DNA of 64,000 bases, from positions 186,001 through 250,000 of the forward strand of contig NZ_LZEU01000001.1 of the NCBI RefSeq assembly GCF_014490745.1, read 5' to 3'. Both the position numbers and the translations under genes were made by a program. Positions 36,818 to 52,248 of the stretch are shown one piece after another. The notes below the pieces were generated by a model, which saw only the letters and a list, made by a program, of their open reading frames with translations, had not been told where the DNA came from and searched no databases. The DNA is from Pseudomonas alcaligenes. Its GTDB lineage: Bacteria; Pseudomonadota; Gammaproteobacteria; Pseudomonadales; Pseudomonadaceae. How positions within the stretch are numbered: the stretch's first letter is position 1; every line of letters starts with the position of its first letter.

Positions 36818-38443
<1,626 letters not shown>

Positions 38444-38481: not shown

Positions 38482-39330
38482 TCAGTAGGCGATGGAGGCC
38501 AGCGGCAGGTCTTCGACCCGCGGCGGCGGGGCGCGGTAGTCGCCGTCGCCGGTCAGCTCGAACAACAGGTCCTCGCGCAGCTGGTGGAAGTCGTAGCTGC
38601 TGCGGTTGCGCGGGTGTGGCAGGTCGACCTCGACGATGCGCTTGATCCGCCCCGGGCGCGGTGCCATCACCACCACGCGGTCGGCGAGGAAGATCGCCTC
38701 CTCGACATCGTGGGTGACCAGCAGGCTGGTGATGCCGGCGCGCTTGCGGATGGCCAGCAGCTCGTCCTGCATCTGCTGGCGGGTCAGCGCGTCGAGGGCG
38801 CCGAAGGGTTCGTCGAGCAGCAGGATGCGTGGGCTGGCCACCAGGCCGCGGGCGATGGCCACGCGTTGGGCCATGCCGCCGGAGAGCTGGTGCGGGTAGG
38901 CCCGCTGGAAGCCATCCAGGCCGACCAGCTGGATGAATTCCTCGACCCGGCGGAAGCGTTCGGCCTGGGTCAGGTCTTCGTTGACCAGGCCGAGGTTGAT
39001 GTTCTGCTCCACGGTCAGCCAGGGGAACAGGCGGTGCTCCTGGAACACGATGCCGCGCTCGCTGCCGATACCGGCGATGGCCTTGCCGGCGACCTCGATG
39101 CGGCCGTCGAACTGGCGATCCAGGCCGACCAGCAGACGCAGCAGGGTCGACTTGCCGCAGCCGCTGGAGCCGAGGATGGCGATGGACTCGCCCTCGCGGA
39201 TATCCAGGCTGAATTCGCGGATCGCCTCCAGCTCGGCGAAGTGCTTGCTCACTGCGCTGAAACGCACGAGCGGCGGCGCCGGCGGCAGGCCAAGGAGGAT
39301 GCGGGGGTCATGCAGGGTCAGGCTGTTCAT
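38482..39330 (-). CDS. atsC: Sulfate-ester ABC transporter ATPase AtsC
   Basis: A 282-residue ATPase of the nitrate/taurine/sulfonate type. Walker A is ILGSSGCGKSTLLR, the signature is LSGGMAQRVAIARGL, and Walker B is [12 protein letters not shown], with HDVEEA as the switch His. It pairs with the double permease AtsB (4-base overlap) and the binding protein AtsR. It precedes atsA by 53 bases. Confidence 0.93.
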   Translation of the reverse strand: MNSLTLHDPRILLGLPPAPPLVRFSAVSKHFAELEAIREFSLDIREGESIAILGSSGCGKSTLLRLLVGLDRQFDGRIEVAGKAIAGIGSERGIVFQEHRLFPWLTVEQNINLGLVNEDLTQAERFRRVEEFIQLVGLDGFQRAYPHQLSGGMAQRVAIARGLVASPRILLLDEPFGALDALTRQQMQDELLAIRKRAGITSLLVTHDVEEAIFLADRVVVMAPRPGRIKRIVEVDLPHPRNRSSYDFHQLREDLLFELTGDGDYRAPPPRVEDLPLASIAY

Positions 39331-40913
39331 GCGGTTCTCCAGCGCGTGGCGCGCGCTTCGATCAGTTGTCCGAGGCTGTTGAGCAGGGCGCCGGTGATGC
39401 CGATCAGCAGCATCCCGGCCATCACCTGATCCATGCGAAACAGTTGCTGTGCGCCGATCATCAGGCTGGCGATGCCGCCGTCCGAGGGCATGAAGTACTC
39501 GGCGCCGATGGTGCCCAGCCAGGCGAAGATCAGCGCCAGGCGCAGGCCGGCGAATAGCGCCGGGGCGATGCCCGGCAGCACCAGGCGCAGCAGGCGCTGG
39601 CGGCGGTCGAGGCGCAGCACGCGGGCGGCCTCGTCGAGTTGTGGCGAGAGGGCGGCGATGCCGCGCTGGCTGGCGATCAGCAGCGGAAAGAAGGTGGCCA
39701 GGCCGACGAACACCAGCTTGGCCAGTTCACCCAGGCCGAACCAGGCAGTGAGCAGCGGCACCCAGGCGAAGATGGCGACCTGACGCAGCGCCGACAGGGT
39801 CGGGCCGAGCAGCCGTTCGGCCGGGCGCCACAGGCCGAGCAGCACGCCGAGCAGCAGGCCCAGGCTGCCGCCCAGCAGCAGGCCGGCGACGGCGCGGCCC
39901 AGGCTGAGCAGCAGGCCTTTGGCCAGACTGCCGTCGGCCAGGCCCTGCCAGGTGGCCTGCAGCACCGCCAGCGGACTGACGAGGATCTGTGCGTCGACCC
40001 AGTCGGCACTGCAGGTCAGTTGCCACAGGGCAGTCAGTGCCAGTGGCAGGTACCAGGCCTGCAGGCGCTGCCAGCCGCGCCCGGAAGGTACGCGGCGGAA
40101 TTCGGCGGCCGGCGGGTGCGGCCAGTACAGCAGGCGGCCGTCGAGCCACTGGATGCCGCGATCCAGTACCACGCCGAACAGGCCGATGATCAGGATGCAG
40201 ACGAACACTATGTCGAGCATGAACAGCTGGCGACCCCAGACCATCAGGTAGCCGAGGCCTTCGCTGGAGGCCAGCAGTTCCACCGCCAGCAGCGAGGCCC
40301 AGCCAGTGGCCAGGGCCAGGCGCAGGCCGGCCATGAATGAGGGCAGCGCGGCGGGGATGGTCAGCCGCCACAGGCGCAGGTGCAGCGGCAGGCGCAGCAC
40401 GGCGGCGGCCTCGCGCAGGCGCGGCTGGGCGTCGCGCACGCCGACCAGGGTATGGATGGTCACCGGCACTATGATGGCCTTGATCAGCACCACCAGCTTG
40501 AGCGCCTCGCCGATGCCGAACAGCAGCATGAACAGCGGGATCCAGGCCAGGGTGGGAATCTGCGTGAGAGCGGCGAAGCTCGGGTAGACCAGGCGTTCGG
40601 CGCGCGGGCTGGCCCCCAGCAGGCTGCCCAGCAGCACGCCGCTGGCGACCCCGCCGAGCAGGCCCCAGGCCAGGCGCTGCAGGCTGATCGCCAGGTGCTG
40701 CCAGAGCTCGCCGCGGCCCAGCTCCAGCAGGGTCTGCCAGACCAGCGCCGGTGCCGGCAGTACCTGTTCGCTCATCCACTGGTAGTGACTGGCGCCCTGC
40801 CAGAGCAGTAGCAGGGTAAGCGGCAGCAGCCAGGGCAGCAGATGGCCGGCTCCGCGCCGCCAGTGCCAGGCGGGCAGGGAATAGGGCAGGGCAAGGGCGG
40901 GGCTGTGGCTCAT
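39327..40913 (-). CDS. atsB: Sulfate-ester ABC transporter double permease AtsB
   Basis: A 528-residue permease with two tandem binding-protein-dependent transport domains, about 12 transmembrane helices. Two EAA-type loops are visible: LREAAAVLRLPLHLRLWRLTIPAAL in the first half and LDEAARVLRLDRRQRLLRLVLPGIA in the second. Fused double permeases are characteristic of AtsB rather than the single SsuC/TauC type. The start at 40913 has AGGGGG upstream; the in-frame extension to 40979 runs into the promoter. It is divergent from atsR. Confidence 0.92.
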   Translation of the reverse strand: MSHSPALALPYSLPAWHWRRGAGHLLPWLLPLTLLLLWQGASHYQWMSEQVLPAPALVWQTLLELGRGELWQHLAISLQRLAWGLLGGVASGVLLGSLLGASPRAERLVYPSFAALTQIPTLAWIPLFMLLFGIGEALKLVVLIKAIIVPVTIHTLVGVRDAQPRLREAAAVLRLPLHLRLWRLTIPAALPSFMAGLRLALATGWASLLAVELLASSEGLGYLMVWGRQLFMLDIVFVCILIIGLFGVVLDRGIQWLDGRLLYWPHPPAAEFRRVPSGRGWQRLQAWYLPLALTALWQLTCSADWVDAQILVSPLAVLQATWQGLADGSLAKGLLLSLGRAVAGLLLGGSLGLLLGVLLGLWRPAERLLGPTLSALRQVAIFAWVPLLTAWFGLGELAKLVFVGLATFFPLLIASQRGIAALSPQLDEAARVLRLDRRQRLLRLVLPGIAPALFAGLRLALIFAWLGTIGAEYFMPSDGGIASLMIGAQQLFRMDQVMAGMLLIGITGALLNSLGQLIEARATRWRTA

Positions 40914-41220
40914 GTCAGTGGCCCCCTTGTGAATCGCTATAAGCAGATGGTGTAAAAGGCATATAAAAACTCTCATCAATTCTTTTGAGCGATAAGAGAG
41001 GCCATTTAAAGGAGCTCGGCGAGAGCTCGGCCAATGCCTTTGCCGAATATTTTTTATGCCTTTGCTGCATCTGGCCTGGCGGCCGCGTGCCGACTGATTT
41101 AGGTGTTTTGGTTACTAAAAAATAATTTTTTATTATTTATTTCTTATATCTCGGACATGCCTAAGTGCAGCGCCAAGGGATGCCGCGAGCATCCAGCCCT
41201 GCATCAAGGAGCCCCGTGCC
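40914..41220. other. atsBCA / atsR divergent promoter region
   Basis: This 307-base AT-rich gap contains the 37-bp two-box element at 41034-41070, a further single half-site AAAGGCAT at 40955-40962 near the atsB start, a direct repeat of GAGCTCGG around 41013-41030, and a very AT-rich stretch (41105-41150) likely to hold the atsR promoter. No convincing gene lies in it. Confidence 0.6.
41034..41070 (+). promoter_or_regulatory. Two-box operator, copy 1 (ats promoters)
   Basis: ATGCC, 17 bases, ATGCC, 6 bases, GCAT. The right-hand box (ATGC-N7-GCAT) is a dyad with the T-N11-A form bound by LysR proteins; the left box is a half-site repeated exactly 22 bp away, two helical turns. ATGCCTTTGC is present identically in both boxes. 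The same geometry recurs at 44307-44343 and 49288-49324. Confidence 0.65.
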
Positions 41221-42372
41221 ATGAAAAGCCTGTTCGATTCCTTCGTCGTGTTGTTCGCCACACCGGCGCTGATCGGCTTGCTGGCTTACCTGCCACCGCC
41301 CGAGGTGGCCAACAAGGTGAAGTCCGCCGGCATGACTGTCTTTGCGCTGCTCGCCACGCCGGCGCTGCTCGGCCTGCTGGCCTACCTGCCGTCCGCCCAG
41401 GCGGCGGAGCAGCCACAGACCATTCGCATCGCCGTGCCCGACCTCAGCGCCGGTAGTCAGCACAGCGGCGGCGGGGTGGTGGATGTGCTGCGCAGCCAGC
41501 AGATCTTCGAGCAGGAATTCGCCGCCGACGGCATCAAGGTGCAGTGGACTTTCTTCAAGGGCGCCGGCCCGGTGATCAACGAGGCGTTGGCCAACGGCCA
41601 GGTCGACTTCGCCTACCTTGGCGACCTGGCGGCCATCATCGGCAAGGCCAATGGCCTGGATACCCGTGTGCTCAGCGCCTCGGCGCGCAACGTGCGGCTG
41701 TACCTGGGCGTGGTGCCGGGCTCGGCGATCAAGACCCTGGCCGACCTCAAGGGCAAGCGCGTGGCGATCTTCCGCGGCACCGCCAACCAGTTGTCCTTCG
41801 CTGCCGCCCTGGCCAGCCAGGGCCTCAAGGAACGCGACCTGCAGGTGATCAACCTGGACTTCAACGCCGCCAGCGCCGCTCTCGCCGCCAAGCAGATCGA
41901 CGCCACCTGGGGCGCCGGCAACCTGATCGCCCTGCAGCAGCGTGGTCTGGCCGAGCTGCCGCTGAACACCGACGACCTCAAGGGCGTGGGCAGTGTGCAG
42001 GCGGTGCTGCTCGGTACCGGCGCCTTCGTCGACCAGCACCCGGACATCACCGCGCGGCTGCTCAAGGCCCAGCAGAAGGCCGTGCAGTGGCTGCGCAACG
42101 AGGCCAACAAGCAGGCCTACGTGGAGCTGGTCTCCGGCCTGGCCAGCTACCCGCAGGTGCTGATCCAGAGCGATCTGGATAACGCCAGCTTCAGTGCCAT
42201 CTTCGATCCGCGGCTGGATCCGGCCTTCCTCGCCAGGCTGCAGGCAAGCGTCGACCTGGCTGCCGAGCAGCGCCTGATCCGCAAGGGCTTCCAGGTGAGC
42301 ACCTGGAGCCAGCCGCAATTCCTCGATGCCGCCCTGCAGGCCCAGGCCGCCGAGGTACAGGCCCAGCGTTAA
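41221..42372 (+). CDS. atsR: Sulfate-ester-binding periplasmic protein AtsR
   Basis: A 383-residue SsuA/TauA-type binding protein (IRIAVPDLSAGSQHSG, FKGAGPVINEALANGQVDFAYLGDLAAI). The N terminus is odd: the hydrophobic signal segment occurs twice, LFATPALIGLLAYLP at 11-25 and LLATPALLGLLAYLP at 43-57, 32 residues apart, with the cleavage site AQA|AEQ only after the second. An ATG at 41332 would give a single signal peptide but has a poor ribosome site, whereas ATG 41221 has AGGAG 9 bases upstream. It delivers sulfate esters to AtsBC. Confidence 0.9.
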   Translation: MKSLFDSFVVLFATPALIGLLAYLPPPEVANKVKSAGMTVFALLATPALLGLLAYLPSAQAAEQPQTIRIAVPDLSAGSQHSGGGVVDVLRSQQIFEQEFAADGIKVQWTFFKGAGPVINEALANGQVDFAYLGDLAAIIGKANGLDTRVLSASARNVRLYLGVVPGSAIKTLADLKGKRVAIFRGTANQLSFAAALASQGLKERDLQVINLDFNAASAALAAKQIDATWGAGNLIALQQRGLAELPLNTDDLKGVGSVQAVLLGTGAFVDQHPDITARLLKAQQKAVQWLRNEANKQAYVELVSGLASYPQVLIQSDLDNASFSAIFDPRLDPAFLARLQASVDLAAEQRLIRKGFQVSTWSQPQFLDAALQAQAAEVQAQR

Positions 42373-42399
42373 GGGGGGAGTGGACGCGAAGGAACGCAG

Positions 42400-42425
42400 A
42401 CCGCGGCCCAGGCCGCGGTTTTTTT
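42400..42425 (+). terminator. Rho-independent terminator of atsR
   Basis: ACCGCGGCC, loop CA, GGCCGCGGT is followed by a run of T. It is 28 bases after the atsR stop. Confidence 0.9.
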
Positions 42426-42564
42426 ATGCCCGCGCAGACGCCGGCCAGGCAATGCTTCGTTGAACATTTTTTAACCTGTTTTTCACACGAGCCCGCCTAA
42501 GGTGCGCGGGCCGGCTGCCTCCTGCGCCGGACGCCATGCACGTTCCGACTACGGGAGCTACCGG

Positions 42565-43329
42565 ATGAATAAATTGCCGCAAATCACCCTGGCCTTCTGG
42601 GTGATGAAAATCTGTGCCACCACCCTCGGCGAAACCGCCGGCGATCTGCTGTCGATGACCCTCGACGTCGGCTATGCCGTCAGTTCGCTGATCCTCATCG
42701 GCCTGTTCCTGGTCGCCCTCAGCGGCCAGCTGATGAGCCGTCGCTACCTGCCGGCGCTGTACTGGACGGTGATCCTCGCCACCAGCACGGCCGGTACCAC
42801 CATGTCCGACTTCATGGATCGCACCCTGGGCCTGGGCTATGCCAGTGGCTCGGCGATCCTCGTCACCCTGCTGCTGTGCGTGCTCGGGCTGTGGCGCCTG
42901 AGCGAGAAGTCGCTGGCGGTGGACAACATCGTCAGCCGCCGTGGCGAGCTGTTCTACTGGGGCGCGATCCTGGTTTCCAACACCCTGGGCACGGCCCTGG
43001 GCGACTACCTGGCGGACGACTCCGGCCTCGGCTTCGCCGGCGGCGCGCTGCTGATCGGCAGCCTGATCGCCGTGGTGGCGCTGGCCAAGCAGTTCACCCG
43101 CATCTCCAGCGTGGCGTTGTTCTGGATCGCCTTCGTGCTGACCCGCCCGTTCGGCGCGACCCTCGGCGATGTGCTGACCAAGACCCACGAGAAAGGCGGG
43201 CTGGATTTCGGCACCGTGGGCTCCTCGGCGATTCTCGCCGGTGTGCTGGTGGTGCTGGTGTTCTTCGCCATGCGCGCCGAGCGCCGCGAGCAGCCGGACA
43301 ACCGCCTGCAGGGTGCCGATCTGGCCTGA
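42565..43329 (+). CDS. COG4705-like membrane protein with fourfold internal repeat
   Basis: A 254-residue, very hydrophobic protein with about eight transmembrane segments. Four units each carry an aromatic-Trp pair and an Asp exactly 15 residues later: W12/D27, W67/D82, W132/D147 and W187/D202, each Asp in a T-x-G-x3-(G/S)-D type motif. The two halves repeat with a 120-residue offset. Buried acidic residues and internal symmetry suggest a transporter or channel; no function is known to me. The start at 42565 has GGGAG 7 bases upstream. It lies between atsR and the LysR gene. Confidence 0.8.
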   Translation: MNKLPQITLAFWVMKICATTLGETAGDLLSMTLDVGYAVSSLILIGLFLVALSGQLMSRRYLPALYWTVILATSTAGTTMSDFMDRTLGLGYASGSAILVTLLLCVLGLWRLSEKSLAVDNIVSRRGELFYWGAILVSNTLGTALGDYLADDSGLGFAGGALLIGSLIAVVALAKQFTRISSVALFWIAFVLTRPFGATLGDVLTKTHEKGGLDFGTVGSSAILAGVLVVLVFFAMRAERREQPDNRLQGADLA

Positions 43330-43348
43330 GTGCGGTCGTAGGTCAACC

Positions 43349-43376
43349 CAGCGCCCGGACATTTGTCCGGGCGCTG
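43349..43376. terminator. Hairpin between convergent genes
   Basis: CAGCGCCCGGACA and TGTCCGGGCGCTG form a perfect 13-bp stem with a 2-base loop in the 52-base gap between the membrane-protein and LysR stops. The T-tract is short, so it may work as a weak bidirectional terminator. Confidence 0.65.
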
Positions 43377-43381
43377 GCGTT

Positions 43382-44305
43382 TCAGGCCGCCACCGCCTCG
43401 GCCTGGTCGCGATCGAGCTGCACCAGTAGCTCGATCATCGCCCGCGCCGCCGGCGACAGGCGAAAGCCGGTGCGGGTGACGATGCCGCAGCGTGCGCTGA
43501 GGCTGTCCAGGTTGGTCGGCAGGTTGCGCAGGTACAGCTGCACCAGTTCGCCACGGCGCAGCGGTTCATCGATGGCCTCGCGAGTGGCGATGCCGATGGC
43601 GTCGCTACGCCGTACCAGCTCTTCCAGCAGGGCGAAGTGCTCGCACTCCAGCTGCGGGTCGAAGCTGGTCTTGCCGCTGAGATTGGCCAGCAGCTTGCGC
43701 ACGCCCATGGGAATACGCGTGGCGGCCAGCGGGTAGTCGAACAGGTCGTTGGTCGACAGGCTCTCCTTGGCCAGCAGCGGATGCCCGGGGCGGCAGAAGA
43801 ACAGGCCGGGGCGCGGGCGCAGCGCCTGGGTCTGCACGCTGGGGTCGGCCTCGAAGTGGCGGATGTCGGCGATGAAGAACTCGATCTCGTCGCGCCCCAG
43901 ACTGCGGCTCAGGCTCTCCCAGTTGTTCACCTCGAAGCGTGCGCGGATGCGCGGGTAGCGCTGCATGAACTGCAGTAGGGCCTCGGGCACCAGCTTGGCG
44001 GCCAGCGCCGGGCCGCAGCCGAAGCGCAGCTCGCCGGCATCCAGCTTGGTCATCTGGTTGATCTCGTGGGCCAGGTTGCTGGCGCCGCGTACCAGGGTCA
44101 GGGCGTGCTGCAGCACCACCTGGCCTTCCGGCGTGGGACGCAGATCCTTGCTCGCGCGATCCACCAGGACACAGCCCAGTTCATGCTCGAGGCCCTGGAT
44201 GCTGCGGCTGAAGGCCGGCTGGGTAATGCCCATGGCATCGGCTGCGCGGACGAAACTGCGGTGCTCGTGGAGGGCGAGAAAGTAGCGGAGTTGGCGCAGA
44301 TCCAT
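43382..44305 (-). CDS. LysR-family regulator of the sulfate-ester locus (SftR-like)
   Basis: A 307-residue LysR protein: HTH with SFVRAADAMGITQPAFSRSIQGLE (about 17-40) and a full effector domain. It is divergent from the TonB receptor, the position of SftR beside SftP in P. putida S-313, where it controls sulfate-ester genes. The two-box operator begins 2 bases upstream of its start codon, typical of autoregulated LysR genes. It is the best candidate to read the same operator at ats and tonB-exbBD. Confidence 0.88.
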   Translation of the reverse strand: MDLRQLRYFLALHEHRSFVRAADAMGITQPAFSRSIQGLEHELGCVLVDRASKDLRPTPEGQVVLQHALTLVRGASNLAHEINQMTKLDAGELRFGCGPALAAKLVPEALLQFMQRYPRIRARFEVNNWESLSRSLGRDEIEFFIADIRHFEADPSVQTQALRPRPGLFFCRPGHPLLAKESLSTNDLFDYPLAATRIPMGVRKLLANLSGKTSFDPQLECEHFALLEELVRRSDAIGIATREAIDEPLRRGELVQLYLRNLPTNLDSLSARCGIVTRTGFRLSPAARAMIELLVQLDRDQAEAVAA

Positions 44306-44306
44306 G

Positions 44307-44343
44307 ATGCGTTCCCGGCATTGAAAATATAGGTAGAAGGCAT
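44307..44343 (-). promoter_or_regulatory. Two-box operator, copy 2 (LysR / TonB receptor)
   Basis: Read on the minus strand: ATGCC, 17 bases, ATGCC, 6 bases, GCAT, with the central ATATTTT shared with copy 1. The dyad box abuts the LysR start codon and the half-site lies on the side of the TonB-receptor promoter, as in classical LysR-controlled divergent promoters. A TATAAAT -10-like box for the receptor is at 44407-44413. Confidence 0.65.
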
Positions 44344-44460
44344 TTGTGCCGTCCTGGGTGCTGGTTTTAAATGCAGGCTCTTATTCCGTCAATCTAAGTA
44401 AATCAATATAAATAGATCAAAAAGGAATATTGATATGGCCAGCAATCAGGGGGGAGCCCG

Positions 44461-44517
44461 ATGAAACAGCCAGCTGCATCACCCGTTCTGCGTGAGTCCA
44501 TGCGCCGCTGTCGCTGA
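44461..44517 (+). CDS. Candidate leader peptide upstream of the TonB receptor
   Basis: An 18-residue frame, MKQPAASPVL-RESMRRCR, is preceded by GGGGGGAG 4 bases before ATG. It ends 129 bases before the receptor gene. The final codons are Met-Arg-Arg-Cys-Arg. GC-rich dyads follow, including GCCCG-GTTTT-CGGGC near 44606-44620, which could form alternative mRNA structures. A 9-codon frame (ATG 44435) with AAGGA upstream overlaps its start codon. Attenuation by cysteine supply is a hypothesis only. Confidence 0.4.
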   Translation: MKQPAASPVLRESMRRCR

Positions 44518-44646
44518 CCGCGCGCTGAGCCGCCTGCGGCGCGCTCGCCACTTTCCACTAGCGAATTTCACCAGTGCGCCGGGCGCGCGCTGCGGCTCGT
44601 TATCGCCCGGTTTTCGGGCCGGGCCCCCAGAACAGGAACACCACAC

Positions 44647-47004
44647 ATGCCTCATAGCCGAACGCCGCGTATCGCCAGACCTCTGGCTCTGCAACGCCTG
44701 AATACCCCGGAATATGCCCTGACCCTGCTGCTGGCCCTCGGTGGCCTGGCCGCACCGGGTCATGCCTGGGCCGCGGAAGCTGAAACGCCGAGTGCTGAAG
44801 AGGCGGTGGCGCTGGACAAGGTCACTGTCACCGCGCGGCGTCGCGAGGAAGACGTGCAGGACGTGCCGACGCCGATCACCACCCTGAGCGGCGCCACCCT
44901 GGAACAGCAGAAGGTGTACAAGGTGCAGGATCTGCAGCAGGTGCTGCCGAGCGTCAACGTCGCCTTCATCCACGCCCGCCAGTCGAGCATCGCGGTGCGC
45001 GGCATCGGCAACAACCCGGCCAGCGACGGACTGGAAGGCAGCGCCGGGGTGTACCTGGACAACGTCTACCTGGGCCGCCCGGGCATGGCTGTGTTCGACC
45101 TGCTGGACATCGAACAGCTGGAGCTGCTGCGCGGCCCGCAGGGCACCCTGTTCGGCAAGAACACCACCGCCGGCGTGCTCAACATCAGCACGCGCAAACC
45201 GACCTTCACCCCCGAGCGCAGCATCGAGGTGTCCGGTGGCGAGCGTGGTTACTTCCAGGGCAAGGGCACCGTCTCCGGTGGCCTCACCGAGACCCTGGCC
45301 GGGCGCCTGTCGGCCTACCGCACTCGCGACGATGGCTTCATCGACAACACCTACAACGGCGATGACCTCAACGGTGGCGAGCGCGAAGGCGTGCGTGGCC
45401 AGCTGCTGTTCGAACCGAACGACGACTTCAACCTGCGCTGGATCAACGACTACAACGCCGAAGACTCCAGCAACGGCACCATGGTGCTGTACGGCGCGCC
45501 GCAGCGTTACTGGGATCGCGCCGCGCTGGCCGGTGCCGCGCCGCATCGCGACCCGGACGACCACAAGGTCAACATCAACGGCCGCCAGCACGTCAGCGTG
45601 CACCAGGGCGGCAGCTCGGTGGAGGCCAACTGGAACCTCAACGGCGGTTACACCCTGACCTCGATCAGCGCTTACCGCTACTGGCACTTCACCCCGGCCA
45701 ACGATGAAACCCTGAATGTCGCGGCGATCAACAACACCGGGGTGGAAGTCCACGACCGCCAGTTCTCCCAGGAAATCCGGCTGGCCTCGCCCACCGGCGG
45801 CGCCTTCGACTACGTACTGGGCAGCTATATCTTCAACCAGAACCTGGGCAACAAGACCTTCACCGACTACGGCCCGAAAGCCGACCTGTTCCTCACCGGT
45901 GCCAACCCGGGGATCTTCAACAACGTCTACAGCAAGGCCAACGGCAAGGTCGAGACCGACAGCTTCGCGCTGTTCGGCCAGGGCACCTGGCACCTGACCG
46001 ACAAGCTCGACTTCACCGCCGGGGTACGCGGCACCTACGAGGAGAAGCAAGCCAAGGTCGAGCGCTTCGCGCCCGAAGGTGGCGCCGCCCTGCCGCCGGC
46101 GCTGCAGGCAATTCGTAACCGCCAGCTCGGCGCCTACGACTCCGGCGACCTCAACCTGCACAACGCTGCACCGTCCGGCCTGCTCAGCCTCAGCTACAAG
46201 TTCACCGACGACCTACTCGGCTACGCCTCGCTGTCCCATGGCGAGAAGTCCGGCGGGGTCAACCTGGCCGTGGCCAGTGCCCCGACCCTGGGCGCCGACT
46301 CGCTGCTGGTCGGCCCGGAGCGTGCCAACGATGCCGAACTGGGCTTCAAGAGCACCCTGCTGAACAACCGCCTGCTGTTCAACGCCAACATCTTCTGGAC
46401 CGGCATCCACGGCTACCAGGCCACCACCCTGACCACCACTGCCAGCTCGCCGACCCCGGTGTCGGTACTGGCCAACGCCGGCAGCGTGCGTTCACGCGGC
46501 GTCGAGTTCGAAGCAACGGCCCTGCCGATTCGCGGCCTGACCCTCAACGTCAACGGCTCGTACAACGACGTCACCTACCTCAGCTTCGAGAACGCGCCGT
46601 GCCCCGGCGAGGTCAGCACGGTCACCCCGACCGCCACCTGCGACCTGACCGGCGAGCGGGTGGTCGGCGCCTCGAAATGGATCGGCAACCTCAACGGCGA
46701 GTACGCCTGGCAGATCGACAACGGCATCAAGCCCTACATCAACGCCGGCTACTCCTACCGCTCCGAAGCCGAAGGCACGCTGGACAACTCCGACCTGTCG
46801 AAGATCGACGGCTACGGCCTGGTCAACCTGGCCGCCGGTGTGCGCACCGACCTCGGCGACGGCCAGCTGGATACCTCCGTGTGGGTCAAGAACGCCACCG
46901 ACACCGACTACTACCTGAGTGCCTTCGCCTACATCAACGGCGCCTACACCGCCTCCGTGGGCCAGCCGCGCACTGCAGGTGTATCCCTGCGTTACGACTT
47001 CTGA
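44647..47004 (+). CDS. TonB-dependent outer-membrane receptor for sulfate esters (SftP-like)
   Basis: A 785-residue receptor with signal peptide (cleavage near HAWA|AEAE, residue 43), TonB box DKVTVTA at 57-63, plug domain (about 70-180; LLRGPQGTLFGKNTTAG) and a 22-strand type barrel ending in YDF. It precedes the AtsK-type dioxygenase and faces the SftR-like regulator, so it probably imports sulfate esters or related organosulfur compounds. A dedicated TonB-ExbB-ExbD set is encoded 2.5 kb downstream. Confidence 0.9.
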   Translation: MPHSRTPRIARPLALQRLNTPEYALTLLLALGGLAAPGHAWAAEAETPSAEEAVALDKVTVTARRREEDVQDVPTPITTLSGATLEQQKVYKVQDLQQVLPSVNVAFIHARQSSIAVRGIGNNPASDGLEGSAGVYLDNVYLGRPGMAVFDLLDIEQLELLRGPQGTLFGKNTTAGVLNISTRKPTFTPERSIEVSGGERGYFQGKGTVSGGLTETLAGRLSAYRTRDDGFIDNTYNGDDLNGGEREGVRGQLLFEPNDDFNLRWINDYNAEDSSNGTMVLYGAPQRYWDRAALAGAAPHRDPDDHKVNINGRQHVSVHQGGSSVEANWNLNGGYTLTSISAYRYWHFTPANDETLNVAAINNTGVEVHDRQFSQEIRLASPTGGAFDYVLGSYIFNQNLGNKTFTDYGPKADLFLTGANPGIFNNVYSKANGKVETDSFALFGQGTWHLTDKLDFTAGVRGTYEEKQAKVERFAPEGGAALPPALQAIRNRQLGAYDSGDLNLHNAAPSGLLSLSYKFTDDLLGYASLSHGEKSGGVNLAVASAPTLGADSLLVGPERANDAELGFKSTLLNNRLLFNANIFWTGIHGYQATTLTTTASSPTPVSVLANAGSVRSRGVEFEATALPIRGLTLNVNGSYNDVTYLSFENAPCPGEVSTVTPTATCDLTGERVVGASKWIGNLNGEYAWQIDNGIKPYINAGYSYRSEAEGTLDNSDLSKIDGYGLVNLAAGVRTDLGDGQLDTSVWVKNATDTDYYLSAFAYINGAYTASVGQPRTAGVSLRYDF

Positions 47005-47041
47005 CGTGCCGTCACGCAAATCTCAAGCAAGGAGAAATGAC

Positions 47042-47944
47042 ATGAGTAACGCAGCCATCGCTATCGAACCCGCAGTACAGCTCGACATCCACCCGGTTGC
47101 CGGACGCATCGGCGCGGAAATCCGAGGCATCAGCCTGTCCGGCAGTCTGGACGCGGCCACGGTCGAGGCCATCCAGGCCGCCCTGGTGGAGCACAAGGTG
47201 CTGTTCTTCCGCGGCCAGCACCAGCTCGACGACCAGGCCCAGGAAGCTTTCGCCAAGCTGCTCGGCGAACCCATCGCCCACCCCACCGTGCCGGTGCGCG
47301 CAGGCACCCATTACCTGCTCGAGCTGGACGGCGCCCAGGGCCACCGGGCCAATTCCTGGCACACCGACGTGACCTTCGTCGACTCCTATCCCAAGGCCTC
47401 GATCCTGCGCTCGGTGGTGGCCGCCAAGGCCGGTGGCGACACCGTCTGGGCCAACACCGAAAGCGCCTACCAGGATCTGCCGGACAGCCTGCGCGAGCTG
47501 GCCGACAAGCTCTGGGCGGTGCACAGCAACGAGTACGACTACGCCGCGATCAAGCCCAGCGTCGACCCGGCACGTCTGGAGGAGTACCGCAAGGTGTTCG
47601 CCTCCACTGTCTACGAGACCGAGCACCCGCTGGTGCGCGTGCACCCGGTGAGCGGCCAGCGCAGCCTGCTGCTCGGCCACTTCGTCAAGCGCATCAAGGG
47701 CCTGTCGCAGGGCGACTCGCAGCGCCTGTTCGACATCCTCCAGGGCCACGTGACCCGCCTGGAGAACACCGTGCGCTGGCGCTGGCAGGAAGGCGACGTG
47801 GCGATCTGGGACAACCGCGCCACCCAGCACTACGCCGTCGACGACTACGGCCAGCAGGATCGCATCGTGCGCCGCGTGACCCTGGCCGGCGATGTACCGG
47901 TGGCCCTCGACGGCCGCCGCAGCCAGACCACCCGCAAGGGCTGA
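47042..47944 (+). CDS. atsK: AtsK-type alpha-ketoglutarate-dependent alkylsulfatase
   Basis: A 300-residue Fe(II)/2-oxoglutarate dioxygenase of the TauD family. The metal triad is H107-x-D109 (SWHTDVTF) and H263 (ATQHYAV), with R274 and R278 for cosubstrate binding; positions are one less than in P. putida AtsK as I recall it. It cleaves alkyl sulfate esters oxidatively to aldehyde and sulfate. The start at 47042 has AAGGAG 7 bases upstream; the in-frame extension overlaps the receptor gene. Confidence 0.9.
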   Translation: MSNAAIAIEPAVQLDIHPVAGRIGAEIRGISLSGSLDAATVEAIQAALVEHKVLFFRGQHQLDDQAQEAFAKLLGEPIAHPTVPVRAGTHYLLELDGAQGHRANSWHTDVTFVDSYPKASILRSVVAAKAGGDTVWANTESAYQDLPDSLRELADKLWAVHSNEYDYAAIKPSVDPARLEEYRKVFASTVYETEHPLVRVHPVSGQRSLLLGHFVKRIKGLSQGDSQRLFDILQGHVTRLENTVRWRWQEGDVAIWDNRATQHYAVDDYGQQDRIVRRVTLAGDVPVALDGRRSQTTRKG

Positions 47945-47958
47945 ACCGGGAGACTGTC

Positions 47959-48855
47959 ATGAGCAACAACGTCAGCGCATTGCGTCAGGAACAGGTCACG
48001 GACGGCCTGCGCATCGTGCCTCTGAACGCCCCGCTGGGTGCCGAGGTGCATGGCCTGGATGGCCGCCAGGATCCCACGGCCGAGCAGATCCTCGCCCTCA
48101 AGCAGGCTCACCGCGAGTACCAGATCCTGATCTTCAAGAACCAGCAGCTGGACGATGCGCAGTTCCTGCGCTTCGCCTCCTGGTTCGGCTCGGTGTTCCA
48201 GCCGCACCCGGACTTCGCCGTGCTGTCCTCCGGCGACGACGGCAAGGCGCCGGATATCGTCAAGGTGGCCAACACCGGCGACGGCGAACTGGGCAACTTC
48301 GCCCTACCGGCACACACCGACCACCAGTGGACGCCGACCCCTTCGGCCGGCTCGCTGCTGTATGCCCTGGAAGTACCAGAGCAGGGCGGCGAGACCAGCT
48401 GGACCAACCTGGCCCTGGCCTACCGGGCTCTGGACGAAGCTACCCAGCGCGAGATCGATGAGCTCAAGCTGATCAACTACAACCCCTTCGTGCGCATCAA
48501 GAACGGCGGCTATGGCGGCGGCTTCGTCACCTACCGCACGCCGGACATCGAGCCGATCCAGGGCACCGAGCACCCGCTGGTGCGCACCCATCCGGAAACC
48601 GGCAAGCGCCTGCTCTACCTCAGCGTGCACACCGAGGTGGAGATTCCTGGCTACGACCCGGAGCAGGGCGCGGCGCTGATCGCCCGCCTGCGCGAGCACC
48701 TGCACAACCCGCGCTTCTCCTATACCCACAAGTGGGAAGTGGGCGACATCGTGTACTGGGACGACCAGGCCACCCTGCATGCGCGCAATGCCTTCCCGGC
48801 CACCCAGCGGCGGCGCATGAAGCGCATCAGCCTGGCCGGCAGCCGGCCGTTCTGA
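47959..48855 (+). CDS. Second TauD-family dioxygenase
   Basis: A 298-residue Fe(II)/2-oxoglutarate dioxygenase with the metal motif H-T-D in PAHTDHQW (about 119-121) and the distal His in ATLHARNAF (about 274), plus Arg residues in RRRMKRISL. It is only distantly similar to the preceding AtsK-like protein and starts 14 bases after it, so both are co-transcribed. It may open a different organosulfur substrate; the substrate cannot be inferred. A strong terminator follows. Confidence 0.88.
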   Translation: MSNNVSALRQEQVTDGLRIVPLNAPLGAEVHGLDGRQDPTAEQILALKQAHREYQILIFKNQQLDDAQFLRFASWFGSVFQPHPDFAVLSSGDDGKAPDIVKVANTGDGELGNFALPAHTDHQWTPTPSAGSLLYALEVPEQGGETSWTNLALAYRALDEATQREIDELKLINYNPFVRIKNGGYGGGFVTYRTPDIEPIQGTEHPLVRTHPETGKRLLYLSVHTEVEIPGYDPEQGAALIARLREHLHNPRFSYTHKWEVGDIVYWDDQATLHARNAFPATQRRRMKRISLAGSRPF

Positions 48856-48881
48856 CCAATCTGCAACGCTTGCCTACCTCG

Positions 48882-48913
48882 CGGCGCACCCATCCCGGGT
48901 GCGCCGTTTTTTT
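48882..48913 (+). terminator. Rho-independent terminator of the receptor-dioxygenase operon
   Basis: CGGCGCACCC, loop ATCCC, GGGTGCGCCG is followed by seven T, 26 bases after the stop of the second dioxygenase gene. Confidence 0.92.
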
Positions 48914-48958
48914 ACGCTATGTCCCAGCTAGGTGTTGTATCGGCGTGTCCCCCACTGG

Positions 48959-48978
48959 ATCCCCGCCTGCGCGGGGAT
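48959..48978. repeat. Hairpin repeat copy A
   Basis: ATCCCCGC, loop CTGC, GCGGGGAT, followed by GACGAG. It is a variant of the repeat at 36781-36808. Confidence 0.7.
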
Positions 48979-49012
48979 GACGAGGCAGAGGGGAAGTCCT
49001 GCAGAGAACCGT

Positions 49013-49034
49013 CAGTCCTGCGCAGGCGGGAATC
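49013..49034. repeat. Hairpin repeat copy B (degenerate)
   Basis: CCTGCGCAGG followed by CGGGAATCC: the right half of the same repeat family, with a decayed left half. Confidence 0.5.
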
Positions 49035-49212
49035 CAAGGAGCAGGCGACTACAACGCATAGATGAGCGACCACATAGGTGCTGTGCTCGCATGTTTCCTG
49101 GGTTATTCCCCTGCGGGCCAACGCTAGCGCTGTTCAGCGATAGAGCCGCTGTCCAGCTTGCGCGGGAATGGCGGAGCCGGTGAATGACGCCACGGCTCAT
49201 CCTTACCTCGTC

Positions 49213-49232
49213 ATTCCCGCGCAGGCGGGAAT
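49213..49232. repeat. Hairpin repeat copy C
   Basis: ATTCCCGC, loop GCAG, GCGGGAAT, within the flanks CGTC and CCAGAG seen in other copies of the family. Confidence 0.7.
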
Positions 49233-49287
49233 CCAGAGCGGCGCTGGGTGGTTTGCACCTGGCTGGCCGAAGCCAGGCGCTTTCCAT

Positions 49288-49324
49288 GCCTTGCAGGCAA
49301 TTTTCCCATGCCTCAAAGGCATTG
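49288..49324 (+). promoter_or_regulatory. Two-box operator, copy 3 (tonB-exbBD)
   Basis: ATGCC, 17 bases, ATGCC, 6 bases, GCAT. Here both boxes are dyads: ATGCCTTGCAGGCAA at 49288-49302 and ATGCCTCAAAGGCAT at 49310-49324, again offset by exactly 22 bp. It lies about 190 bases upstream of tonB. The dyad box is on the tonB side, the opposite orientation relative to the target from copy 2. Confidence 0.65.
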
Positions 49325-49513
49325 AAAGATAAAAATCTTTTTAAATCAGTTATTTACGATTTATATATTCCATAAAGAAATTAACAACTAATTAAAGATT
49401 ACTTTATGAGATAAGACGCCTCGCTAATCATCTGCACCAAGGCCGAGCCGCTCTGCCATGGGCGTTTCGCGGATCGGCACCGAATGCAGAAGCGATTTTC
49501 AGGAGTCTTGCCG

Positions 49514-50296
49514 ATGGGCAATGTCCACAAAGCCGATCTCGCCGCCGACGTGCTCTGGCGCGACGCGCGCAGCCCCGGCGAAGTGCTCGATCTGGGTGTC
49601 TCGCTACGCCAGGCCCTGGGCCTGCAGCGCCACTTGCCCAAACCTGGCAAGCCGGTGCTGGGCCGGCGCGAGGCCGTACTGCTCGGCCTGTTCGCCCTGA
49701 CCCTGCACGGCGCGGTGCTGCATTGGCTGGCCAGCCGGCCCGAGCCGGTGCTGCCGGAAGTGCCGGTGGAAATCCCGCCGATGACCATCGAATTCGCCGC
49801 CCCGCCGCCTCCGCCACAAGTGGTCGAACCGCCGCCACCGGTGGTCGAGGAGCTGGCCGTGAAGCCGCCACCGCCCAAGCCGGTGCCGAAGCCCAAGCCG
49901 CAGCCGCCCAAGCCGAAACCGCTGCCCAAACCGGTCGAGCAAGCGCCGCAGCCGAAGCAGGAAACGCCACCGCCACCAGCTCCGGTCGCTCCGCCAACGC
50001 CGGCGCCGGTCAAGGAAACACCGCCGTCGGCCAACGCCGCGTACCTGAAGAACCCGGCGCCGGAATACCCGTCGCTGGCCCAGCGCCGCGGCTGGGAGGG
50101 CACGGTGCTGCTGCGGGTGCATGTGCTGGCCAACGGCAAGCCGAGCGATATCCAGATCCAGAAGAGCAGTGGCCGTGACGCCCTCGACGAAGCGGCGGTA
50201 CGCGCCGTCAAACGCTGGAGCTTCGTCCCGGCCAAGCGTGGCGACGTGGCCCAGGAAGGCTGGGTGACGGTGCCGCTGGACTTTCGTTTGAACTGA
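49514..50296 (+). CDS. tonB: TonB energy-transducing protein
   Basis: A 260-residue TonB. An N-terminal cytoplasmic extension of about 50 residues precedes the single transmembrane helix (about 53-73, with His65 and His70), as in Pseudomonas TonB proteins. A Pro/Lys-rich periplasmic spacer covers about 95-170 (repeated KPKPQ-like units) and the C-terminal TonB domain covers about 175-260 (YPSLAQRRGWEGTVLLRVHV). The start at 49514 has AGGAG 8 bases upstream. It forms an operon with exbB and exbD and carries the two-box operator upstream, so it is likely specific for sulfate-ester uptake. Confidence 0.93.
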   Translation: MGNVHKADLAADVLWRDARSPGEVLDLGVSLRQALGLQRHLPKPGKPVLGRREAVLLGLFALTLHGAVLHWLASRPEPVLPEVPVEIPPMTIEFAAPPPPPQVVEPPPPVVEELAVKPPPPKPVPKPKPQPPKPKPLPKPVEQAPQPKQETPPPPAPVAPPTPAPVKETPPSANAAYLKNPAPEYPSLAQRRGWEGTVLLRVHVLANGKPSDIQIQKSSGRDALDEAAVRAVKRWSFVPAKRGDVAQEGWVTVPLDFRLN

Positions 50297-50356
50297 CTGG
50301 CCGTTTGCACTGAATTGAACCGAATCGACTGAAATACGTTTTACGAGGAACGCATC

Positions 50357-51079
50357 ATGAATCTGTTAGTGGACTCCCCCCTGCAATCGGTCGAGCACAG
50401 CGTCATCTGGCTGCTGATCGGCTTCTCCGTCCTGACCTGGGGCCTGGCCCTGATCAAGGGCATCCAGTTCGCCCGCCAGCGCTTCCAGGATCGCAAGTTC
50501 CTCAAGCTGTTCTGGAGCGCCACCAGCCTGGACTCCGCCGCCGAACTGGGCCAGCAGCACACCGGTGCGGTGGCCCATGTGGCCCAGGCCGGCTTCGCCG
50601 CGATCCAGGTGCACGACGGCCAGCAGCCGGGCGACCTGAGCCAGGCGATCAACCACCAGGATCGCCTCGAACGTGCCTTGCGCCAGCAGATCCAGCGTGA
50701 GCGTCGCTCCCTGGAAAGCGGCCTGGCAGTAGTCGCCAGTATTGGTAGTACATCGCCCTTTATCGGTCTGTTCGGCACCGTCTGGGGCATCATGGAAGCG
50801 CTCAAGGGCATCAGCCTGGCCGGCAACGCCAGCCTGGAAACCGTGGCCGGGCCGATCGGCGCCGCGCTGGTCGCCACCGGCGTGGGTATCGCCGTCGCCG
50901 TGCCGGCGGTGCTGGTTTACAACTACTTCCTGCGGCGCCTCAAGCTCACCGCCGCCGACCTCGACGACTTCGCCCACGACTTCTACAGCCTGGCGCAGAA
51001 GAGCGCGTTCAAGGTCATCGTCCATCCTGCCGGCAAGCGCAGCGTGGGCGGCAACCAACCGGTGAAGGAGGCGTCCTGA
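50357..51079 (+). CDS. exbB: ExbB proton-channel protein
   Basis: A 240-residue MotA/TolQ/ExbB protein with three transmembrane helices (about 15-35, 125-150, 165-190). The conserved region LAVVASIGSTSPFIGLFGTVWGIMEALKGI spans the second helix. It forms the pentameric channel that powers TonB. It starts 60 bases after tonB with ACGAGG upstream. Confidence 0.95.
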   Translation: MNLLVDSPLQSVEHSVIWLLIGFSVLTWGLALIKGIQFARQRFQDRKFLKLFWSATSLDSAAELGQQHTGAVAHVAQAGFAAIQVHDGQQPGDLSQAINHQDRLERALRQQIQRERRSLESGLAVVASIGSTSPFIGLFGTVWGIMEALKGISLAGNASLETVAGPIGAALVATGVGIAVAVPAVLVYNYFLRRLKLTAADLDDFAHDFYSLAQKSAFKVIVHPAGKRSVGGNQPVKEAS

Positions 51080-51080
51080 C

Positions 51081-51482
<402 letters not shown>

Positions 51483-51566
51483 GAACGGATTTGGCTCGGA
51501 CGCGAACCTGTCACATACCGTCTCTAGACTGGCGGCATCGGGTTCCTCCAGACCGCAACGGTTCGT

Positions 51567-51606
51567 GGGGCCGCTCTTTCCAGGCAGGGGGGGCGGCCCC
51601 TTTTTT
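51567..51606 (+). terminator. Terminator of tonB-exbB-exbD
   Basis: GGGGCCGC and GCGGCCCC pair around an 18-base loop and are followed by TTTTTT. It is 84 bases after the exbD stop and just before the GST gene. Confidence 0.8.
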
Positions 51607-51627
51607 ATTCAGTACAAGGAGTTCCCG

Positions 51628-52248
51628 ATGACCACGCTGTTCATTTCCCCCGGCGCCTGCTCGCTGGCTTCGCATATCGCCGTTCTTGAGCTGGGTCTGC
51701 CGATCCAGATCGAGAAGGTCGCCCTGCGCACCCCGGACTCGCCGATCCACGCGATCAACCCGCTGGGCCGCGTGCCGGCCCTGCAGCTGGACGATGGCAC
51801 CCTGATCACCGAGAACAGCGCGATCCTGCCGTACCTGGCCGACCAGGTGCCGGGCACGCCGCTGTTCGCCCCGGCCGGCAGCGCCGAGCGTGCGCAGATC
51901 CAGAGCTGGCTCGGCTACCTGGCGGCGGAAGTGCACGCCGCCTCGTTCCGCCCGCTCAACCGCCCGGAACGCTACTCGGCCGACGCAGCCGCCCATCCGG
52001 GCATTCGCGCCCAGGCCCAGGTGCAGCTGCTGCAGGCCTTCCAGCATATCGAGCGGCACCTGCAGGAGCGCCAGTGGCTGGTGGGCGAGCGCTTCACCCT
52101 GGCCGATGCCTACCTCGGCATCTTCACCACCTGGCTGCTGCGCATTGGCGGCCCGTTCGCCGAGCTGCAGGCCATCGCCCGCCTGCGCGAGCAATGGCGC
52201 GCCCGCCCGGCGGTGCAGCAGGCGCTGCAGGCCGAAGGACTGCTGTAA
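51628..52248 (+). CDS. Glutathione S-transferase (beta-class-like)
   Basis: A 206-residue GST. The thioredoxin-fold N-terminal domain (1-80) has the beta-class cysteine C11 in SPGACSLASH and the glutathione-binding NPLGRVPALQLDDGTLITENSAIL; the C-terminal domain is helical (about 90-200, LADAYLGIFTTWLLRI). The start at 51628 has AAGGAG 7 bases upstream. It is separated from exbD by a terminator and has no evident operon partner. Confidence 0.9.
   Translation: MTTLFISPGACSLASHIAVLELGLPIQIEKVALRTPDSPIHAINPLGRVPALQLDDGTLITENSAILPYLADQVPGTPLFAPAGSAERAQIQSWLGYLAAEVHAASFRPLNRPERYSADAAAHPGIRAQAQVQLLQAFQHIERHLQERQWLVGERFTLADAYLGIFTTWLLRIGGPFAELQAIARLREQWRARPAVQQALQAEGLL

Follow-up and report, generated by a model that had tools for sequence, protein, structure and literature searches.

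SftR as the probable reader of a two-box element at three promoter regions of a Pseudomonas alcaligenes sulfate-ester locus

In Pseudomonas alcaligenes, a 64,000-nucleotide stretch of contig NZ_LZEU01000001.1 (positions 186,001 to 250,000; called the window throughout) holds a sulfate-ester locus in which one 37-bp element, ATGCC-N17-ATGCC-N6-GCAT, recurs in three promoter regions. What reads this element, and what would reading it do to the genes beside it? The LysR-type regulator gene sftR (43382-44305, minus strand) is encoded together with atsRBCA, sftP and atsK in the window and in relatives; the ats and sft names follow in part the Pseudomonas sp. UW4 cluster (PMC3596284). On the strength of sequence comparison, we think it very probable that the element is the SftR operator, through which SftR would activate sftP-atsK and atsBCA, probably tonB-exbB-exbD as well, and control sftR itself.

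To begin with the element's occurrence, a pattern scan of the window found exact matches at 41034-41070 (plus strand, copy 1), 44307-44343 (minus strand, copy 2) and 49286-49322 (plus strand, copy 3). The initial annotation had named three exact copies; copies 1 and 2 stand as it gave them, and its coordinates for copy 3 (49288-49324) were 2 bp too high. Copy 1 lies between atsB and atsR and consists of box 1 (41034-41048), a linker (41049-41055) and box 2 (41056-41070). In copy 2, between sftR and sftP, box 2 (44307-44321) is beside sftR and is followed by the linker (44322-44328) and box 1 (44329-44343); on the sftR strand the ATG begins one base past this copy, in agreement with the earlier statement that it abuts the LysR start codon. 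Copy 3 is upstream of tonB-exbB-exbD, and both of its boxes are near-perfect dyads. In the whole 4.97 Mb genome we found 3 exact matches, all in this locus, whereas the expected numbers, from an order-1 model trained on the window, are 0.12 for the genome and 0.0016 for the window, so the pattern does not occur at chance frequency. One mismatch was seen at 2 other places in the genome and two mismatches at 47 further matches; with up to two mismatches allowed, the reversed-pattern control gave 10 matches compared to 53. When the spacer was varied from N5 to N40, the window had matches at N17 alone (n = 3). With three mismatches allowed, we found no excess over shuffles in the window (10 compared to a shuffle mean of 11.7), and we therefore take the exact form to be the signal.

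The 37 bp consist of a 7-bp A/T-rich linker with a 15-bp box on either side, and the box centres are 22 bp apart, which upholds the two helical turns previously noted between the two ATGCC motifs. Box 2 is a near-perfect dyad, ATGC-N7-GCAT, with its outer four pairs complementary in 93-100% of sites. Box 1 is imperfect, reading ATGC-N7-GAAT in most ats and tonB sites and ending in CTAT in sftR sites. The T-N11-A form typical of LysR sites had been assigned to the second box; it is present there but is not limited to it, as box 1 carries T-N11-A too (128/130 distinct sites for each box, three site classes summed). The sites were picked by a pattern that fixes the T and A of box 2 and the T of box 1, which leaves the A of box 1 as the one free test of this form. 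A pair of ATGC motifs at 22 bp is present in 33 of 36 tonB gaps (the next most frequent spacing is 35 bp, in 12 gaps) and in all 65 ats gaps. The two boxes together resemble the paired sites, one for recognition and one for activation, at which a LysR tetramer binds, the arrangement of a classical LysR-type double operator. LysR regulators are described as having a recognition site with a T-N11-A dyad, which is often autoregulatory, and an activation site, both read by a tetramer (PMC8407307, PMC11739112).

How well is this arrangement kept in relatives? We scanned named genomes using the best 80 of 576 SftR relatives (69-94% identity), which give 80 named loci. At the start of sftR, the element lies 0 or 1 bp before the start codon in 78 of the 80 loci (61 exact, 17 with one mismatch), the two loci without it being L097 and L150. 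In the atsR/atsB gap, a site with at most two mismatches is present in 65 loci including the window. The 80 loci and the window together (81 sequences) hold 96 exact matches: 61 are in the gap between sftR and sftP or atsK, 25 are beside tonB, 3 are in the atsR-atsB gap, 3 are between adjacent tonB and sftR genes (1 of these 3 at the start of sftR) and the other 4 are at the ends of loci, where the outer neighbour was not recognised. All 96 lie outside scored genes. A matrix trained on sftR-start sites with the window's own site omitted ranks the three window sites first in the 64 kb (55.7, 14.4 and 11.3; the next site scores -12.6). With the same matrix, the best site in relatives besides the one at the sftR start falls in an ats or tonB gap in 65/80 loci; with column-shuffled matrices, run on 10 of the 80 loci, the best site fell in these gaps in 0-5 of the 10 loci (mean 1.6 over 20 shuffles). 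Thus, relatives have the element again at each of the three places, the sftR start, the atsR/atsB gap and the stretch before tonB, which is the clustering upstream of orthologues that had been set beforehand as a check. These relatives also bear on the orientation of copy 3, which had been described as opposite to that of copy 2 relative to its target. Copy 3 can be read on the other strand with 1 mismatch and is nearly self-complementary, so within the window alone its orientation is weak; across the tonB class, 26 of 27 exact matches share its orientation (the exception is L152).

What would SftR do at these sites? Beside box 1 of copy 2 starts a predicted promoter for sftP-atsK, TTGTGC-N17-TTAAAT (44344-44372, plus strand), and beside box 1 of copy 1 is a predicted promoter for atsBCA, TGGCCG-N18-TTAAAT (41004-41033, minus strand). 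Read in the direction from box 2 to box 1, TTAAAT stands 23-24 bases beyond box 1 in 78/79 sftR-gap loci and in 54/65 ats-gap loci (it is at offset 45 in one ats gap and absent in 10), and the first hexamer past box 1 is TTGCGA in 54/79 sftR-gap loci. A generic sigma-70 consensus scan of 40880-49600 gave 1 promoter-like site compared to 1.1 in shuffles and did not score the proposed promoters, which thus rest on conservation. Because box 1 abuts a predicted -35 with the conserved TTAAAT 23-24 bp on, SftR most likely activates sftP-atsK and atsBCA, presumably through contact with RNA polymerase once the tetramer changes shape in response to a signal of sulfate esters or sulfur status. Box 2 would be the high-affinity recognition site and box 1 the activation site, with one SftR tetramer holding both and bending the linker. 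Residue P30 is invariant in 9 aligned SftR proteins; in BenM and CbnR it contacts the T of T-N11-A (PMC12609908). At sftR, box 2 directly adjoins the start codon and contains the likely Shine-Dalgarno sequence; a tetramer bound there would cover both and should keep sftR expression down, a form of autocontrol. The same element stands before tonB-exbB-exbD, which suggests a third target and would mean that uptake and its energiser are switched together.

The strongest alternative is that SftR mainly represses: CysB would turn the genes on in sulfur starvation and SftR would tune or block them until sulfate esters appear. The position of the element against the sftR start, where it holds the likely Shine-Dalgarno sequence, would suit a repressor, and conserved A/T-rich blocks between the element and tonB or atsR leave room for a second regulator. 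However, the abutment of box 1 on the predicted -35 and the fixed offset of TTAAAT at the sftR and ats gaps are the layout of a LysR activator, and the conserved tonB block TTACTTTANGRGATAAG has a single other match in the genome (1 mismatch), between genes that by eye are dnaE-like and accA-like, and so gives no sulfur-regulon signal. We consider mainly repressive action unlikely, and activation by SftR the better account of sftP-atsK and atsBCA.

Does the element follow SftR from genome to genome, or might another regulator read it? Exact matches are present in 127 of 398 family genomes, and the pattern read backwards matches in 2; the 127 are inflated by matches outside the regulon, namely a second family (about 15 genomes at least, among the matches listed) and scattered singles. 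We took 198 of these genomes (presumably G000-G197), tallied by hand, and found an SftR orthologue (at least 58% identity, E at most 1e-110) in 43. The exact element is present in 39 of the 43 genomes with SftR compared to 6 of the 155 without it (Fisher test, 3e-30), and among the six, the three sites listed have no A/T-rich linker. The SftR genomes that have no exact match are G010, G019, G124 and G135; three of them have degenerate elements both where sftR starts and within the ats gap, and G019 has just a weak element, before tonB. In three further genomes with SftR (L201-L203), a strong element stands before tonB, the sftR start lacks one, and atsB was not matched. In 368 other gammaproteobacterial genomes we found no SftR at E 1e-85.

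Paralogues of SftR show how the operator letters vary with the regulator. SftR2a (51-55% identity) neighbours SftR in many loci and comes with an element of its own, for example ATGCATTTCCCCGAT-ATTTTTT-ATGTGAAAAATGCAT, whose box 2 contains the probable start codon of SftR2a (13 distinct sequences). In another lineage, SftR2b (48-51%) replaces SftR beside ats; at the SftR2b start the element begins with TTGC, not ATGC, in 17/17 loci fetched, and the ats gap, present in 15 of these loci, reads TTGCGTTTTCCTCAT-ATTTTC[CG]-ATGC...GCAA in 15/15, with another sequence of the gap scoring above this element in L245. With regulators 89-94% identical, the SftR2b genomes seem to form a single clade, so the repeated counts probably reflect a single event, and the force of the evidence is that two unrelated gaps changed alike. 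SftR is kept elsewhere (63-67%) in 21 of the 24 SftR2b genomes, and G880 has a second SftR (61%) beside its own ats set. An SftR-type element (at most one mismatch, looser pattern) is present in 20 of the 24, each with one before tonB. The recognition helix was considered as the cause of the change from A to T and rejected because the helices of SftR2a and SftR2b are nearly the same while their operators differ.

These results also bear on the idea that CysB or an unlinked LysR protein reads the element and SftR is a mere neighbour, which we consider improbable: in G393 a tonB element is present where no orthologue of SftR was found, but across genomes the presence of the element tracks SftR, and at two sites the letters track the type of regulator. 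Taken together, the recurrence at three gaps in 80 loci, the co-occurrence and the joint change of regulator and operator letters support the initial proposal of one regulon read by the LysR protein encoded at 43382-44305. The last two alternatives are very hard to credit. For an RNA-level element (a leader or attenuator) or a mobile repeat, the overlap with the translation start region at sftR is outweighed by the lack of any Rfam match at the gathering threshold in 40000-52000, by the position of the sites, which precede predicted promoters and face either way with respect to the genes, and by the 96 exact matches that all lie outside scored genes. A chance similarity preserved through shared ancestry of the region would fit relatives that are not independent and an sftR gap that is closely alike across loci, but three unrelated gaps have a common geometry, and in 20 genomes it is preserved at tonB sites remote from both sftR and ats.

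Several observations weigh against the SftR operator reading. Most ats sites are two mismatches from the initial pattern, commonly with ATGCA for ATGCC in box 1, and the ats gaps hold ATGC pairs at 9, 31 and 40 bp almost as often as at 22 bp. Relative to the gene, the boxes at tonB run in the reverse order to those at sftP and atsB, with the presumed recognition box the closer of the two; the fixed TTAAAT offset is found at sftP/atsK and atsB, not at tonB, and the chosen tonB start is 191 bp beyond copy 3. By eye, we did not recognise a third box (ABS', activation binding site). The exact matches in other genomes include the second, unrelated-looking family and the scattered singles. Inside the 24 SftR2b genomes the association between SftR and the element is suggestive only (19 and 2 compared to 1 and 2, p = 0.06), with the tonB element of G393 on one side and G891 and G926, which have SftR and no match, on the other. 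Finally, 21 stand-alone SftR genes (L260-L264 and L292-L307) have no in-locus site scoring above 8, save a weak one in L298. As for ATGCA in the ats box, we considered the presence of SftR2 as its explanation and set this aside as mixed: ATGCA is present in all 45 loci with SftR2, yet also in 13 of the 20 without it.

SftR itself is reportedly known from genetics in Pseudomonas putida S-313, in work by Kahnert and colleagues in 2002, and the gene content there is alike. In the Pseudomonas sp. UW4 genome the cluster is listed as atsACBR-sftR-atsK-sftP (PMC3596284). For Pectobacterium versatile, it is reported that the only potential SftR operator located lies in the atsR-atsBCA gap, with the authors' data unshown (PMC7843439); this is the gap of copy 1, and that report gives no letters or geometry and no tonB or sftR site. 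SftR is also named in PMC3827995 and PMC8230428. Among the matches listed in the literature searches there was no printed sequence of the element and no mention of tonB-exbB-exbD as an SftR target. The statement that the element was not known to be described thus holds, among the matches listed, for its printed sequence but not for an SftR operator as such, and we do not claim that it was never described. We take PA0191 of Pseudomonas aeruginosa to be the PAO1 counterpart of SftR. In a high-throughput SELEX (systematic evolution of ligands by exponential enrichment; HT-SELEX) atlas, PA0191 has predicted targets; the passages on it name pel and not ats, and the motif letters were not found in the text (PMC8041468).

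Among the closest known systems are BenM and CatM, and among solved structures BenM chains score highest against the SftR sequence. The operators at benA and catB of Acinetobacter have a Site 1 with a T-N11-A dyad (ATAC-N7-GTAT) and a slightly different Site 2, and at benA a presumed -35 hexamer after Site 2 and a potential UP element that lies between the DNA-binding dimers (PMC6628147). In contrast, the half-site here is ATGC rather than ATAC, Site 3 is not recognised, and the effector is presumably sulfur-related where theirs is muconate or benzoate. A further LysR protein of the P. alcaligenes genome, 43% identical to SftR and presumably SdsB of an SdsB/SdsA pair, is encoded at a locus (L268) on C1 near 4352280-4353211. 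It faces an SdsA-like alkylsulfatase gene (PDB 4nur and 2cfu are among the matches), and a two-box sequence with 2 mismatches to the pattern and a different linker overlaps its start codon. This suggests that the two-box layout may be shared among sulfatase regulators.

Double operators of this kind are well known, and this SftR example seems barely described. The fresh points are the three-target regulon that includes tonB-exbB-exbD, the anatomy of recognition and activation, and the rewiring with a paralogue. A broader reading, which could go either way, is that pseudomonads use their second TonB-ExbB-ExbD set specifically to energise sulfate-ester uptake, with SftR switching it in trans through this operator even when SftR, ats and tonB are far apart. 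On this reading, a paralogue took over ats in one lineage and its operator letters changed while tonB stayed with SftR, so that a LysR regulon was rewired in nature. Of these findings, the link to TonB is the most useful. The operator predicts the three-target regulon for many Pseudomonas genomes and points to a role for a TonB-ExbB-ExbD set. A genetically known regulator also gains a readable operator with defined boxes, and a pair of paralogues with diverged operator letters is useful for learning how LysR proteins choose DNA.

The genes around the three copies were assigned as follows. On the minus strand are atsA, a sulfatase (36818-38428, PF00884), atsC, an ATP-binding cassette ATPase (38482-39330, PF00005), and atsB, a fused double permease (39327-40913, model match). 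On the plus strand, atsR (41221-42372) encodes a periplasmic binding protein of the SsuA family with a score below the family cut-off, and by eye its N-terminus (41221-41420) has a near-duplicate hydrophobic segment, FATPALIGLLAYLP / LATPALLGLLAYLP. A gene for a DUF347 protein stands between atsR and sftR, and sftR was assigned by LysR models. Beyond it, on the plus strand, model matches identify sftP, a TonB-dependent receptor gene (44647-47004), and two atsK-like genes of the taurine dioxygenase family (47042-47944 and 47959-48855). Further on, also on the plus strand, the start of tonB (49514-50296) was picked by eye, guided by a Shine-Dalgarno-like AGGAG and by relatives, and exbB/tolQ-like (50357-51079) and exbD/tolR-like (51081-51482) genes follow by model match. 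The tonB leader has a block, ATTACTTTATGAGATAAG (49398-49415), about 75-110 bp after the element, that recurs slightly changed in nearly all of the 16 loci compared. The conserved tonB leader was tried as a CysB site, which one pattern scan of the own genome left unsupported.

The second family of exact matches (ATGCCTTTCGCGCAAG...CTTGTGCAT and the like) was examined in L030, L044 and L053 and rejected as a regulon member: it has no A/T linker, and the open reading frames around the L030 match are not ats, sftR or tonB. It is the sole exact match in at least 4 genomes, and the 198-genome tally is unaffected by it. Its matches lie at 1501-1537 in L030, 905-941 in L044 and 1501-1537 in L053, with TGTGGATAA-like words, which we take to be DnaA-box-like, about 150 bp away, and in L030 and L044 there are C4 antisense RNA matches about 500-600 bp from them. 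A match to the looser pattern with 1 mismatch (L286, G866:C34:9739-9775) is near a gene 28% identical to the second atsK-like protein and is a possible extra target in one genome. Between the second atsK-like gene and copy 3 (48940-49240), the window has several similar, partly inverted pieces such as CGCGCAGGCGGGAATCCA, which by eye resemble repetitive extragenic palindromic (REP) sequences.

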